64,000 nucleotides of DNA, taken from Phycisphaerae bacterium (lineage in GTDB: Bacteria > Planctomycetota > Phycisphaerae > UBA1845 > Fen-1342). The stretch spans positions 310,001-374,000 of the forward strand of contig JAJVHV010000016.1 of the NCBI GenBank assembly GCA_022072445.1. The letters run 5' to 3'. A model generated the notes under the pieces. The model saw nothing but the letters and a program-made list of their open reading frames with translations, was not told the DNA's origin and made no database searches. Below, piece by piece: positions 21,315-29,662 of this stretch. Made by a program: the position numbers and the translations under genes. Position 1 is the first letter of the stretch. Every line of letters starts with the position of its first letter.

Positions 21315-22490
21315 TCACGCCGGCCGGAGCGGCTGGATGTCCTGGAGGATGCGGGACAGCGCGACGGCGCGGATGCCGCGGCTCAGGGCAAAAGTCTGGT
21401 CTCCGGCGTGGATCACGTCGAGACCGGTCAGCTTCAGGTCGCGACGTGCTGTGTGCATCGATGGCGTCACAGTTGGCGACGCAGTGCGCTTGATCTCGAA
21501 TCCTCGGCGGTTGCGACCGCGGACGATGAGCAAGTCCAATTCCGCACCGGCGTGGGTGGCCCAGAAATAGCACTCTTCGGGCCGGACGCCGAGGTGGTGC
21601 ATGAGTTGCTGCATCACAAAGCTCTCCCACGACGCGCCCAGCTTGGGATGGCTTTCCAGGTCGCGCTGCGTGGACGCATTCAGCAGCGTGTGCAGCAGGC
21701 CGGTGTCCGCGACGTACACCTTGGGGGCTTTGACCTGCCGCTTGGAGATGTTCTCATGCCAGGGCAATAACTGCCGCAGGACCAGGGCGGAAGTGAGCGC
21801 GTCCAGGTAGTGTCGAATCGTCGTATCGGCGACCCCGAAGGAACGGGCGAATTCGGAGGCGTTCCAGATTTGGCCGTGGTAGTGTGCCAGCATGATCCAG
21901 AAGCGGCGCAGTGTCGCGGTGCGGATGTTGATGCCGAGTTGAGGGATATCGCGCTCCAGGAATGTGCGGATGAACTCGCGGCGCCATTGGGCGCTTTCAG
22001 CGGCGGTGCGGGCGAGATAGGAGCGCGGGAAACCCCCGCGAATCCAGAGGCGTTCGTGCTGCTCGACGTCGACTTCGTCCAGCGTCAGACCGTTGAGCTC
22101 GTGATAGACGATGCGGCCGGCGAGGGATTCCGAGGATTGGCGCAGCAGTTCGGGCGACGCGCTGCCGAGAAGCAGAAAACGGGAAGGCCGTCGCGGGCGG
22201 TCGGCCAGGACGCGGATGATGGGGAAGAGGTTGGGTTGGCGCTGCACTTCGTCGATCACGACCAGACCGCGCAGGCGCTCAAGCGCCAGCATGGGCTCTG
22301 CCAGGCGGGCGGCGTCGCTAGGGTTTTCGAGGTCGAAGTGGAATACCGGCGACTTTTGGCGCATGGCGAACTGACGCGCCAACGTCGTCTTGCCGACCTG
22401 TCGCGCGCCGACAATCGCGACGACCGGATTGTGCCGCAGCAGCCGGCGAAGGGTCGCAAGCTGGTCTGAGCGTTGAATCATGAGGCTCAA
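21315..22490 (-). CDS. AAA-type ATPase with DUF4143 domain
   Basis: 391-residue ATPase of the widespread AAA_14/DUF4143 group. Walker A is in VVAIVGARQVGKTTLARQFA (near residue 32), Walker B in LRGLVVIDEVQRQPNLF, and sensor 1-like FLLLGSASPELLRQSSESLAGR. The C-terminal DUF4143 part has VKAPKVYVADTGLLHTLLN and a PD-(D/E)XK-like core (GAELDLLIVRGRNRRGFEIK). Cellular role unknown; members are often mobile or horizontally spread single genes. It lies between convergent GT87 genes and a GH43-like gene with no functional link. Confidence 0.93.
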   Translation of the reverse strand: MSLMIQRSDQLATLRRLLRHNPVVAIVGARQVGKTTLARQFAMRQKSPVFHFDLENPSDAARLAEPMLALERLRGLVVIDEVQRQPNLFPIIRVLADRPRRPSRFLLLGSASPELLRQSSESLAGRIVYHELNGLTLDEVDVEQHERLWIRGGFPRSYLARTAAESAQWRREFIRTFLERDIPQLGINIRTATLRRFWIMLAHYHGQIWNASEFARSFGVADTTIRHYLDALTSALVLRQLLPWHENISKRQVKAPKVYVADTGLLHTLLNASTQRDLESHPKLGASWESFVMQQLMHHLGVRPEECYFWATHAGAELDLLIVRGRNRRGFEIKRTASPTVTPSMHTARRDLKLTGLDVIHAGDQTFALSRGIRAVALSRILQDIQPLRPA

Positions 22491-23673: not shown

Positions 23674-24660
23674 TCAGTCCCGGAATCGGGCATGGCAGTC
23701 TCTGCAGGACGCCGCGATCAGCTCGAATGGCGCGCCGAGCCTGATCGCGTTTGTTTCGCCCGCGGCGAGCAGGTTCTCGAGAGTCTGCGATGCCGCGTTG
23801 GCTTCGTGCATTATGGTGGAAAACGCCGCCGGCCGGCGGGCGACATCGTCGGTCTCGCTGAGGACGCGGAAGAGATCGGCCAGGCGGCCTGCTTCGGCGG
23901 CTGGAACCAGGTCGGGGTGATCCCGGGGCGTGGTCCAGCCGGCGTTCTCGATAGCCTTGAGGCCCTCGAACGCCGCGTCGATCTCGAGCATGCCTTTCAC
24001 GAAGTCGGACGGCTTCCACACGGGCGGAAGGTCGGCGGGCACGCGGTCGATTTCGCTGGCGAGCACGACCGTGGCCGCGCTGGCGCAGGTGTAGAGACCG
24101 GGGTAGTTGCGGGCGGTGCCGGAGACGCGCATGCGCTCGACGCCAGCGGCCGGGCTGAGCCATCCGAGGCTGGCGGCGATCGTCGCCGCCGCTGCGGCGC
24201 TGCGATGTTTGCCGTGATGGCAGTGGATGTAGACGGGTCCGTGCTGGCTGGCGTCGCGGACGGCGCGGACCAACTGGAGCTTACGCTGCTGGTCGAAACC
24301 GTTGTATCCGATGGGCAGGTGGACGTAGCGGATGCCGCGCGCCGCGGCGCGCTGGACTTCGGGCTCCGCGCCGTCGACGCTGACGATGGTCCTGATGCCC
24401 ATGGCCGCGAGGGTGTCGAACCCCGCTTCGCCTTCCGGGGCGCTTCCGGACACGAACCCCTCGTGGTAGGCGACCGCGTTATGGATGCCCGGGTAGTTGC
24501 GCGGCGTGTCGTCGGCCAGCGCCGGCAGGGGAACCGAAGCCGGTGGCGCGGCGCGCGGCGGAGCGGCGCGGGCGTCGCTCCGAGGCGAGGCGCACGAGCA
24601 GCATGCCCCCAGGGCGACGTGCAGACCGGCACCCAGCACGACGCGAAGCAGCACGCTCAT
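23674..24660 (-). CDS. Lipoprotein: CX5R phosphatase fused to a cytochrome c'-like domain
   Basis: 328 residues. A lipoprotein signal peptide with lipobox LGAC (C20) is followed by a dual-specificity/tyrosine phosphatase-like domain (about 50-190): GFDTLAAMGIRTIVSVDG, YVHLPIGYNGFD and the P-loop HCHHGKHRS with C147 and R153 in the exact CX5R spacing. The C-terminal 130 residues are helical and end in AASCRDCHARFRD, a CXXCH heme motif (C319-H323) close to the C-terminus followed by FR, which is the layout of cytochrome c'/c556 four-helix bundles. The protein would be periplasmic or surface-bound, with one covalently bound heme. I do not know of a standard family with this fusion; the cytochrome call rests on motif and layout, not an alignment. 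Confidence 0.78.
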   Translation of the reverse strand: MSVLLRVVLGAGLHVALGACCSCASPRSDARAAPPRAAPPASVPLPALADDTPRNYPGIHNAVAYHEGFVSGSAPEGEAGFDTLAAMGIRTIVSVDGAEPEVQRAAARGIRYVHLPIGYNGFDQQRKLQLVRAVRDASQHGPVYIHCHHGKHRSAAAAATIAASLGWLSPAAGVERMRVSGTARNYPGLYTCASAATVVLASEIDRVPADLPPVWKPSDFVKGMLEIDAAFEGLKAIENAGWTTPRDHPDLVPAAEAGRLADLFRVLSETDDVARRPAAFSTIMHEANAASQTLENLLAAGETNAIRLGAPFELIAASCRDCHARFRD

Positions 24661-25025: not shown

Positions 25026-26834
25026 ATGTCTGCCTGGGAATGGGCGCAATTGGCGCTTTACTTCGTCGTCCTGCTGCTGCTGGCCAAGCCGCTCGGGGCG
25101 TTCATGGCGGCGGTCTACGAGGGTCGCATCCCCGGCTTCGTGCGTTTTCTGGCGCCCGTGGAGCGCGGCATCTACCGGGTGTGCGGCGTGCGGCCGGAGG
25201 TGGAGCATAACTGGAAGCAATACGCCATCGCGATGCTGATGTTTCACGTCGTAGGCTTCGTCTTCCTGTACGGCTTGCAGCGATTGCAGGTCTACCTGCC
25301 GCTGAATCCGGCCAACATGGCCGCCGTCACGCCCGACTGCTCCTTCAATACGTCGGTCAGCTTCGTGACCAATACGAACTGGCAGGGGTATGGCGGCGAG
25401 ACGACCATGAGCTATCTGACGCAGATGCTCGGGCTCACCGTTCAGAACTTCGTCTCCGCGGCGGCCGGCATGGCGGTGCTAGTGGCGCTCATTCGCGGCT
25501 TCGTGCGGCGGCAGACGAACGCGATCGGGAACTACTGGGTCGATCTGACGCGCTCGACGCTCTACATCCTGCTGCCGTTGTCGATCGTGCTGGCGCTGGC
25601 GCTCGTGTCGCAGGGTGTGGTGCAGACGTTCAGACCGTATCAGACCGCCACGCTCCTGCAGCCGACGAGCTATCAGCAGCCCAAGCTCGACGCGGAGGGC
25701 AATCCGCTCAAGGACGGGCAGGGCGAACCGGTCATGGACACGGTCGCGGTCAGCGAGCAGGCGCTTGCGGTCGGGCCGGCGGCATCGCAGATCGCGATCA
25801 AGCAGCTCGGCACGAATGGCGGCGGGTTCTTCAACGTGAACTCGGCCCATCCGTTCGAGAATTCGACGCCGTTTTCGAACTTCCTGGAATGCCTGGCGAT
25901 CCTGCTGATTCCGGCGGCGCTGTGTTACACGTTTGGCGTGATGGTCAAGGACACGCGGCAGGGCTGGGCGCTGCTGGCGGCGATGACGGTGATGTGCCTG
26001 GGTTTTCTGGCGCTCTGCGTTCACCAGGAATATCACCCCGACCCGCAACTCGCGGCGCTGGGCGTCATGACGACGGACGGCGCGGACATGCCGGGCGGCA
26101 ACCTGGAAGGCAAGGAGGTCCGCTTTGGGGTCGCGAACTCCGCGCTCTGGGCCACAACGACCACGTGCGCGTCGAACGGTTCGGTCAACTCGATGCACGA
26201 TTCCTACATGCCGGTGGGCGGCCTTGTGCCGATGGTGCTGATGCAGCTCGGCGAGGTGATCTATGGCGGCGTGGGCTCGGGCCTGTACGGCATGATCGTG
26301 TTCGTCGTGATCACGGTCTTCATCGGCGGCCTGATGGTCGGCCGCACGCCGGAATATCTGGGCAAGAAGATCGAGGCCCACGAGATGAAGATGGCGTCGA
26401 TCGCCGTGCTGGCCCCGTGTCTGGCCGTTCTGGCGGGGACGGCGATCGCCGTGATGACTGCACAGGTTTCCGCCTCGATCTGCAACCCGCTGCCGCACGG
26501 CTTCTCGCAGGTTCTGTACGCCTTTTCGTCGGCCGGCAACAACAATGGCAGCGCGTTCGCGGGTTTCGGCGCGAACAATCCGACCATGAACCTGCTGCTC
26601 GGACTGGCGATGCTGACGGGCCGGTTCTGGGTCAAGATCCCGGTGATCGCGCTGGCCGGCGCGTTGGCGGCCAAGAAGCACATCCCGGTTTCGGACGGCA
26701 CGTTGCCGACGCACACGCCGCTGTTCGTCGCGATGCTGATCGCGGTCGTGTTGATCGTCGGCGCGTTGACGTTCATCCCGGGCCTGGCGTTGGGCCCGAT
26801 CGCCGAGCACGTTCAACTATTTGCCGCGAAGTGA
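25026..26834 (+). CDS. kdpA: Potassium-transporting ATPase channel subunit KdpA
   Basis: 602-residue ion-conducting subunit of the high-affinity K+ pump KdpFABC, in the inner membrane. Pore-loop motifs are intact: [56 protein letters not shown] and [20 protein letters not shown]. About ten membrane helices. It is some 45 residues longer than E. coli KdpA, mainly from an insertion before the second pore motif. The stop is one base before the kdpB start, so translation is coupled. Confidence 0.98.
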
Positions 26835-26835
26835 G

Positions 26836-28929
26836 ATGATGACCACCGCGCATTCGAAATCTCGTCCGCTCTTCGACCCGCCGATCGTCCGTCGAGCGCT
26901 GCTCGATTCCCTGATCAAGCTGCACCCGCGGCACCAGGTCCGCAACCCGGTGATGTTCGTGGTGCTGGTCGGGGCCGTGCTGACGCTGATCCTGTTCTTT
27001 CAGGCGCTGGGCGGTCACGGCGAGGCGTCGCCGCTGTTCATCCTGGCGATTTCGCTGTGGCTGTGGTTCACGCTGCTGTTCGCGAATTTCGCCGAGGCGA
27101 TGGCCGAAGGCCGCGGCAAGGCCCAGGCCGACACGCTGCGCAAGGCGCGGCGCGAGATCGTGGCGCACAAGCTGGCCGAGCCGCGCCGCAGCGCCGCGAT
27201 CGTGCCGACGCCCTCGACCGAGCTGCACAAGGGTGATTGTGTGCTGGTGGAAGCCGGCGCGTTCATCCCGCTCGACGGCGAAGTCATCGAGGGCGTCGCC
27301 TCGGTCGACGAGTCGGCGGTCACGGGCGAGAGCGCGCCGGTCATCCGGGAGAGCGGGGGGGATCGCAGCGCCGTGACCGGCGGCACGCGCGTCCTGTCGG
27401 ACTGGCTGGTCATCCGCATCACGTCGAACCCGGGCGAGAGCTTCATCGACCGCATGATCGGCCTGGTCGAGGGTGCCAAGCGGCAGAAGACGCCCAACGA
27501 AATCGCGCTGAACATCCTGCTGGCCGGCATGACGATCATCTTTTTGATGGCCGTGGCCACGCTGCTGCCTTTCTCGCTCTTCACGGTGACCGCGCTCGGC
27601 CACGGCGACGTGATTACCATCACGGTGCTGGTTGCGCTGCTGGTGTGCCTGATTCCGACGACGATCGGCGGCCTGCTTTCGGCGATCGGCATCGCGGGCA
27701 TGGACCGCATGATCCAGGCGAACGTCATTGCGATGTCCGGCCGCGCGGTCGAGGCGGCTGGCGACGTGGACACGCTGCTGCTCGACAAGACCGGCACGAT
27801 CACGCTCGGCAACCGCGAGGCGACCGAGTTCATCGCCGCCGACGGCGTGCGCATCGAGGAATTGGCCGACGCGGCGCAGCTTTCGTCGCTGGCCGACGAG
27901 ACGCCCGAGGGTCGCAGCATCGTTGTGCTGGCCAAGCACAAGTATGGGCTGCGCGGGCGCGACATCGAGAAGATGCACGCGCACTTCGTGCCGTTCACTG
28001 CCCAGACGCGCATGAGTGGGGTCGACATGAGCGGCACGCGCATCCGCAAGGGCGCTGCCGACGCCATTCAGCGTTTCGTCGAAGCCGAAAAGGGCGTCTT
28101 TCCGCCGAACCTGCGGAGCACGATCGACTCGATCGCCAAGAAGGGCGAGACGCCGCTGGTGGTGGCCCAGGCCGCGAATGGCGGGCCGGCGCGCGTGCTG
28201 GGGGCGGTCCGGCTGAAGGACATCGTCAAGGGCGGCATTCGCGATCGTTTTGCGCAGCTTCGCACGATGGGCATCAAGACGATCATGATCACGGGAGACA
28301 ACCCGCTGACGGCGGCGTCGATCGCCGCCGAGGCGGGCGTGGACGACTTTCTGGCCGAGGCCACGCCTGAGGCGAAGCTCAAGCTCATCCGCGAGAACCA
28401 GGCGGGCGGGCGGCTGGTGGCCATGTGCGGCGATGGGACGAATGACGCCCCGGCGCTGGCCCAGGCGGACGTGGCGGTGGCGATGAACACCGGCACTCAG
28501 GCCGCCAAGGAAGCCGGCAACATGGTCGATCTCGACAGCAATCCGACCAAGCTGATCGAGGTGGTGGAGATCGGCAAGCAACTGCTCATCACGCGCGGCG
28601 CGCTGACGACCTTCAGCATCGCCAACGACGTGTCCAAGTATTTCGCGATCATCCCGGCCGCGTTCGTGACCACCTACCCGGCCCTCGGCGCGCTGAACAT
28701 CATGGGCCTGGCGACGCCTCAGAGTGCGATCCTCTCGGCGGTGATCTTCAACGCCCTGATCATCATCGCGCTGATTCCGCTGGCGCTGCGCGGCGTGAAG
28801 TATCGCGCGGCCCGGGCACAGTCGCTGCTGAGCTGGAACCTGTTCGTCTATGGCGTCGGCGGGCTGCTGATCCCGTTCGTCGGGATCAAGCTGATCGACC
28901 TGCTGCTGGTCGCGTTGAGGTTGGCGTGA
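26836..28929 (+). CDS. kdpB: Potassium-transporting P-type ATPase subunit KdpB
   Basis: 697-residue P-type ATPase that energises K+ uptake. It has the actuator motif VTGESAP, the phosphorylation motif [10 protein letters not shown] (D317), nucleotide-binding KGA motif ([10 protein letters not shown]), [14 protein letters not shown] and [20 protein letters not shown]. All catalytic residues are present. ATG 26836 and 26839 are both possible starts. It is followed by an unusual 106-bp gap with an inverted repeat before kdpC. Confidence 0.98.
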
Positions 28930-28938
28930 AGCGAGTCG

Positions 28939-29009
28939 AACCACCGAGGCGCAGGGACGCGGAGGATCGAGTCTCCGTTCTTTCTCGGTCCCTGTGTGTC
29001 TCTGTGGTT
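28939..29009. repeat. Imperfect inverted repeat between kdpB and kdpC
   Basis: Outer arms AACCAC / GTGGTT (28939-28944, 29004-29009), inner arms CAGGGAC / GTCCCTG (28952-28958, 29088-29094 equivalent at 28988-28994), with mostly paired bases between. As RNA it folds into a long interrupted hairpin. The right arm read in reverse gives an AACCACAGAGACACACAGGG-type word, a kind of intergenic repeat word that I associate with several bacterial genomes. It could reduce readthrough so that KdpC is made at a different level. Confidence 0.55.
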
Positions 29010-29035
29010 GGCTCCGCTCGAAGGGTGCAAGAACC

Positions 29036-29662
29036 GTGTTGACGCAATTACGAGTTGCCACACTGATGCTGATCGTGATGACCGTGCTGACCGGCCTGAT
29101 CTACCCGCTGGTGATTACCGGCATCGCGCAGGTCGTGTTTCCGTCGCAGGCCAACGGCAGCCTGATCGACCGGGAGGGCAAGCCACTGGCCGGCGGCGGC
29201 GCGGCGGCCGGCTCGGCGTTGATCGGCCAGCCGTTCGACGCCCCGCAATACTTCTGGGGCAGACCGTCCGCGACCGCACCATTTCCGTATCACGCCGGTG
29301 CGTCCACGGGCAGCAACTGGGCCGTCACCAACCCCTCGCAGACCGATGCGATCAAGGCCCGCGTGGCGAAGCTGCGCGAGTCGGGCATTCCCGCCGGTCA
29401 GCCGATACCCGTGGACCTTGTGACGGCCTCCGGCAGCGGGCTCGATCCGCACATCAGCGTCGCCGCGGCGCGGATTCAGATCGCCCGGGTGGCGAGCGCC
29501 CGCGGGATGAGCGAGCAGAACGTGCGGCGGCTCGTGGAGCAGCACATCGAGGCGCGGCAGTTCGGCATTTGGGGCGAGCCGCGCGTCAACGTCCTGCGCC
29601 TGAATCTGGCGCTCGACGCGGTGCGGGCCGAGTCGCGGCTGGCGGCGGTCGGCGCGCCATAG
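29036..29662 (+). CDS. kdpC: Potassium-transporting ATPase subunit KdpC
   Basis: 208-residue assembly/chaperone subunit of KdpFABC with one N-terminal membrane span ([20 protein letters not shown]) and a periplasmic domain. Family motifs: [24 protein letters not shown]-like [32 protein letters not shown] and a C-terminal [11 protein letters not shown]. Start taken as GTG at 29036 (TTG at 29039 is possible). Confidence 0.97.

Follow-up and report, generated by a model that had tools for sequence, protein, structure and literature searches.

A conserved planctomycete protein family that joins an atypical phosphatase domain to a predicted c556-like heme domain on one chain

Introduction

Why would a single exported protein carry both the P-loop of a cysteine phosphatase and a heme-binding motif, and could the heme control the phosphatase? 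The question is raised by an open reading frame in a stretch of 64,000 nucleotides of a Phycisphaerae genome (hereafter the window), which encodes a protein of 328 amino acids on the minus strand (23674-24660, stop codon included in this range). A preliminary description made from the sequence had read the protein as a lipid-anchored phosphatase fused to a cytochrome c'-like domain that senses redox state, NO or CO, and had put forward, as a hypothesis, a 'new type of envelope signalling'. That the heme controls the phosphatase is plausible, and we asked which kind of heme site and which kind of phosphatase the family has. The following features of the window are referred to below.

23674..24660, minus strand: whole gene of the phosphatase-heme protein, predicted to be exported (reading of the open reading frame and relatives)
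24601..24660, minus strand: signal peptide with a lipobox-like LGAC at its end, Cys20 probably lipidated (direct sequence reading, family comparison)
24061..24495, minus strand: DSP-type phosphatase domain, residues 56-200 (Pfam PTP-SAK, predicted fold)
24301..24303, minus strand: position 120, Asn here, aligned with the general acid Asp105 of TpbA (Asp in 93/164, Asn in 37/164 members)
24199..24225, minus strand: P-loop HCHHGKHRS, residues 146-154, with nucleophile Cys147 and Arg153 (both in 164/164)
23677..24006, minus strand: c556-like four-helix heme domain, residues 219-328 (profiles, predicted fold)
23989..23991, minus strand: Met224 on helix A, predicted distal heme ligand (164/164; in register with Met7 of b562 and Cys32 of NaxLS)
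23692..23706, minus strand: CXXCH (CRDCH), residues 319-323, predicted to bind heme, with proximal ligand His323 (164/164)

Results

Both active centres are invariant in a planctomycete family

Scanning 84,980 GTDB species, each represented by a single genome, yielded 168 confirmed relatives, from which 80 loci were taken. By record title these are mostly Planctomycetota, with a few misnamed or unclassified MAGs. In 392 sampled Planctomycetota genomes, 150 had a match at E<=1e-10, and by reading about 135 of these carry the two-domain form sought and about 15 the phosphatase only. Conservation was counted over 164 two-domain members taken from the loci, with identity down to about 30%. Eleven positions are invariant (P75, H114, P116, Y119, C147, G150, R153, M224, C319, C322 and H323), and G72, V95, D96, Y186, G188 and R327 are kept in 162-163 of the 164. 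Since the Cys and Arg of the P-loop and the four heme-domain residues M224, C319, C322 and H323 are among the former, both active centres have been kept together. The octapeptide HCHHGKHR is exact in 128 members, and every one of the 164 has exactly one CXXCH.

The intact P-loop and the C-terminal CXXCH had thus been read correctly as parts of one chain, and loss of the two cysteines or the histidine, which would have spoken against a heme site, is seen in none of the 164 members. The spacing of 165 residues given earlier holds when the count starts where the P-loop motif ends; C147 and C319 are 172 residues apart. CRDCH is followed by ARFRD, the C-terminal end of the chain. A CXXCH within the last 15 residues is expected about 2e-4 times by chance at this composition, so that chance is not a sensible account, and the conservation settles the matter. 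The export signal, with its lipobox-like LGAC20, likewise stands. Its lipoprotein character does not extend to the whole family: a strict lipobox pattern is present in 71 of 156 relatives, and by eye others show a less strict lipobox or simply an ordinary signal peptide. Judged by these sequences, lipidation is common in the family but not universal.

In a tree of the phosphatase domain, all fused members fall on one side of a single branch (99/94), apart from the unfused planctomycete relatives (n=18, most with a GxDRTG-like P-loop), and the heme domain is never lost inside the fused clade. The tree has few columns and its bootstrap is unsettled, and its inner details were left unused. A single fusion with later dissemination inside the phylum would account for the grouping, and the two-domain architecture is a conserved family, probably of single origin, spread through Planctomycetota. 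Records titled Limnohabitans, Chitinophaga and Leptolyngbya also occur among the relatives. These are apparently planctomycete DNA that was given a wrong name or bin, and we infer their phylum; the one of them placed in the tree (L052) is nested among planctomycetes. In a check for spread by phages, no viral contig encoded the gene.

The phosphatase domain has a PTP fold with relaxed catalytic positions

The phosphatase half matches Pfam PTP-SAK (PF22784) above its curated cutoff (33.7 versus 27 bits, E 4.5e-8); this model spans the phosphatase half alone and the heme domain is extra to it. The whole protein, modelled with AlphaFold2 from 103 family sequences, reached a mean pLDDT of 92.6 and a pTM of 0.82. 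In this predicted model the phosphatase half adopts the PTP fold and matches DUSP23 (VIA Z 16.6, rmsd 2.4, 142 aligned) and TpbA of Pseudomonas aeruginosa (VIA Z 16.2, rmsd 3.2, 157 aligned). TpbA (PDB 4r0s, 2m3v), likewise DSP-type, is the closest solved relative, being both the best sequence match (profile E 6.7e-11) and the best Foldseek match of the domain. TpbA is an exported, periplasmic DSP phosphatase, but it has no heme domain, its P-loop reads HCKHGNNRT instead of HCHHGKHRS, and Asn120 takes the place of its general acid Asp105. The PFA-DSP phosphatases (Siw14, At1g05000), which are eukaryotic inositol-pyrophosphate enzymes, are similar in fold (VIA Z 14-15) and carry GKHR in their P-loop as the planctomycete protein does, yet also lack a heme domain.

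While the Cys and Arg of the HCX5R P-loop are kept in all 164 members, other catalytic positions vary. Position 120 is Asp in 93 of the 164 members, Asn in 37, including the protein studied here, and another residue in the rest; position 154 after the P-loop Arg is Ser in 103, again including this protein, and Gly in 58. H114, Y119, D96, H149 and H152, in turn, show little or no variation. Since the general-acid Asp is not conserved and Gly follows Arg in more than a third of the members, catalysis may be weak or different: by sequence the domain may be an atypical phosphatase, in which another residue could act as acid, or may carry out other cysteine chemistry. The BLH_phosphatase and TIGR01244 sulfur-transferase profiles match it weakly.

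The heme domain is predicted to be of the c556 kind

The cytochrome c'/c556 assignment was examined by profiles and by models. Pfam Cytochrom_C_2 scores the protein just under its cutoff (23.9 or 26.3 versus 26.5 bits), with E-values of 9e-5 for the whole protein and 1.6e-5 for its C-terminal part. In the family, 88 of 103 members match at E<=0.01 (best 8.5e-9), and the family sequence profile matches solved c' at E 7e-7. Modelled alone, the heme domain forms four helices, the last of which ends with the CXXCH (pLDDT 96.3), just as had been anticipated; a missing four-helix bundle would have spoken against the assignment. Its top structural match is NaxLS of Kuenenia (Z 12.5, rmsd 2.7-2.8, 103-104 aligned), and further matches are Shewanella c' (Z 12.0-12.3) and cytochrome cb562 (Z 11.4-12.2). 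Because any helical bundle tends to score high, these Z values carry little weight by themselves; the sequence profile points to c' independently. With class II cytochromes c (c', c556) the domain shares the four-helix bundle, the CXXCH near the C-terminus and the conserved Arg that follows it, and differs from them by a family-specific W-x2-P-x2-HPDL segment and by the fusion to a phosphatase.

The axial ligands distinguish between the two classes. In the structural rows for cb562, residues 14 and 123 of the model are aligned with chain residues 1 and 106, respectively. A gapless reading of helices A and D then sets M224 (model residue 20) on Met7 and H323 (model residue 119) on His102, which we take to be the two axial heme ligands of cytochrome b562. 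For helix A, the sequence-profile alignment with b562 is off by about three residues from this register, and the structural register was preferred. The register with 6r6o (13 to 25) sets M224 on Cys32 of NaxLS, presumably the distal heme ligand there and mutated in NaxLS structure entries (C32G, C32M). The predicted model therefore places a helix A Met at the distal site, as expected of c556, where a c' would have no coordinating residue. Since Met224 is invariant and sits at the distal axial position, the modelled heme is probably six-coordinate with His/Met ligation, as in c556 or b562, instead of offering the open gas site of c'. NaxLS (Kusta0087/0088, PDB 6r6m) is also from Planctomycetota, but is a stand-alone heterodimer with Cys where the fused protein has Met.

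We infer covalent heme loading, axial Met ligation and export of the chain. The genome encodes a CcsA-type heme-attachment protein (PF01578), and the PF05140 profile found no ResB in it. A second c556-type protein, without phosphatase, is encoded on another contig of the same genome (L214:1027-1662, contig C27), just upstream of an open reading frame that we take to resemble panB.

Neighbours are not conserved and extra fusions are rare

In the window the gene lies between a same-strand GH43 gene and a divergent kdp operon. The latter (25026-29662) comprises the K+-ATPase genes kdpA, assigned by Pfam, and what we take from our own reading of the sequence to be kdpB and kdpC; a DUF4143/AAA_14 ATPase gene occupies 21315-22490 on the minus strand. 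A conserved operon was rejected, as clustering of the open reading frames of 81 loci returned as shared items solely the gene itself and its antisense frames, and no Pfam family occurred in more than four of 146 adjacent open reading frames. Since the neighbours are not conserved, nothing external ties the phosphatase-heme protein to signalling. CHASE8, the periplasmic sensor domain type of the TpbA target TpbB/YfiN, occurs in hybrid histidine kinases beside three loci:

L039:4843-6942, convergent with the phosphatase-heme gene: CHASE8 hybrid histidine kinase
L046:9164-11146, convergent with the phosphatase-heme gene: CHASE8 hybrid histidine kinase
L050:8966-10963, convergent with the phosphatase-heme gene: CHASE8 hybrid histidine kinase

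For a role like that of TpbA, a secreted DSP with a periplasmic sensor domain as its target, the protein does have a signal peptide; the kinase neighbour was given little weight because the loci are only three, the genes are convergent and two of the loci are close relatives in the tree.

In a few species further domains precede the pair, and these rare fusions say more than the neighbours do:

L023:7326-8861, L084:871-2358, L209, L210: three-domain chains of glutathione peroxidase (GPx), phosphatase and c556 domain
L195, L196 (L108:1-2352): CNT nucleoside transporter fused to phosphatase and heme domain
L193 (L137:1282-3273): Na+/Ca2+ exchanger fusion

The first group, in four species of one genus, has a signal peptide and a glutathione peroxidase (GSHPx E 2.5e-41) ahead of the pair, which fits a redox role of the phosphatase-heme pair and hints at one; in a fifth species (G597), a GPx-like and a phosphatase-heme open reading frame lie on separate contigs. 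Two species of one genus have the Na+-dependent CNT transporter in frame ahead of the pair; their chains share 71% identity along almost their full length, and the fusion hints at nucleotides as possible substrates. In one genome the exchanger precedes a degenerate phosphatase (TCETGRDR) and an intact heme domain.

Discussion

We propose that the protein is an exported, usually membrane-anchored redox-gated phosphatase, built from an atypical CX5R domain and a heme domain of the His/Met c556 kind, and assign this reading a probability of roughly 0.45. It builds on predicted fold, conservation, domain order and the one-clade fusion, all of which are supported by sequences and models, and suggests that extracytoplasmic dephosphorylation may depend on redox state. 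The heme would exchange electrons with periplasmic carriers and thereby report their redox state. The change might be passed on through the packed domain interface or by oxidation and reduction of the P-loop cysteine, and would switch dephosphorylation of a putative envelope substrate on or off; the phosphatase activity, its substrate and the coupling of the domains are hypothetical elements of this scheme. An analysis of interdomain coevolution by mean-field DCA reached a Meff of 144 for 267 columns, too shallow for trustworthy ranks. As a tentative extension, the oxidation state of the P-loop Cys could be under direct control of electrons from the periplasmic respiratory chain, delivered by the c556 domain, with the fused GPx of one genus feeding in peroxide signals.

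It is unlikely that the domains work independently, the phosphatase having its own job while the heme domain serves only to carry electrons or to keep the protein close to a redox complex. The rare fusions to unrelated modules such as peroxidase and transporters show that the pair tolerates tethering, and in one member a stand-alone c556-like lipoprotein gene adjoins directly downstream (L187:1890-2594), which may have arisen by duplication of the heme domain or may encode a partner in electron transfer. However, the invariance of both centres suggests functional coupling, and the persistence of the heme domain in the fused clade and the confident joint model (pTM 0.82) also argue against independence.

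The P-loop could instead perform cysteine redox or sulfur chemistry, such as reduction of arsenate or another oxyanion or persulfide transfer, with the heme as electron donor or acceptor. PTP-type P-loops have turned into arsenate reductases elsewhere, Cys and Arg are invariant whereas the general acid and the Ser next to Arg vary, the weak BLH_phosphatase and TIGR01244 matches point the same way, and electron flow would be well served by a heme carried on the same polypeptide. We regard this as unlikely, since genuine phosphatases give the best matches by both profile and fold, Asp120 and Ser154 are kept in most members and no arsenic or sulfur genes are prominent among the 146 adjacent open reading frames.

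Sensing of NO, CO or O2 by the heme domain, with control of the phosphatase as proposed in the preliminary description, appears improbable. The class II fold does include the gas-binding c', and the top structural match NaxLS is described as a nitric oxide-binding complex in a title cited in PMC8388095. With Met224 invariant (n=164) and placed at the distal axial position by the structural register, the site is probably closed; the c556-like part of the former c'/c556 assignment is thus retained and its c'-type sensing part weakened, and electron transfer or a redox switch becomes the first reading. A phosphatase that dephosphorylates extracytoplasmic nucleotides for nucleoside import, with the heme as accessory, would fit the CNT fusion but is very improbable, as most members have no such partner or transporter neighbour, another fusion partner is a Na+/Ca2+ exchanger and the heme is left unexplained.

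Two well-known modules are thus joined on one chain in a phylum-wide family with both active centres invariant. Should the heme control the phosphatase, the family would allow redox control of extracytoplasmic dephosphorylation to be tested directly; should the redox-gated phosphatase respond to respiratory electrons, an envelope phosphatase would act as a redox reporter across much of the phylum. The architecture appears to be previously undescribed: a literature search for a planctomycete phosphatase/cytochrome protein, which reached little of the subscription journals, found nothing relevant. The family gives an entry point to a gene present in roughly a third of the sampled Planctomycetota genomes. 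Two copies lie on plasmids, both in Planctomycetota, one annotated as 'dual specificity protein phosphatase' and the other as 'hypothetical protein'; neither name covers the heme half.
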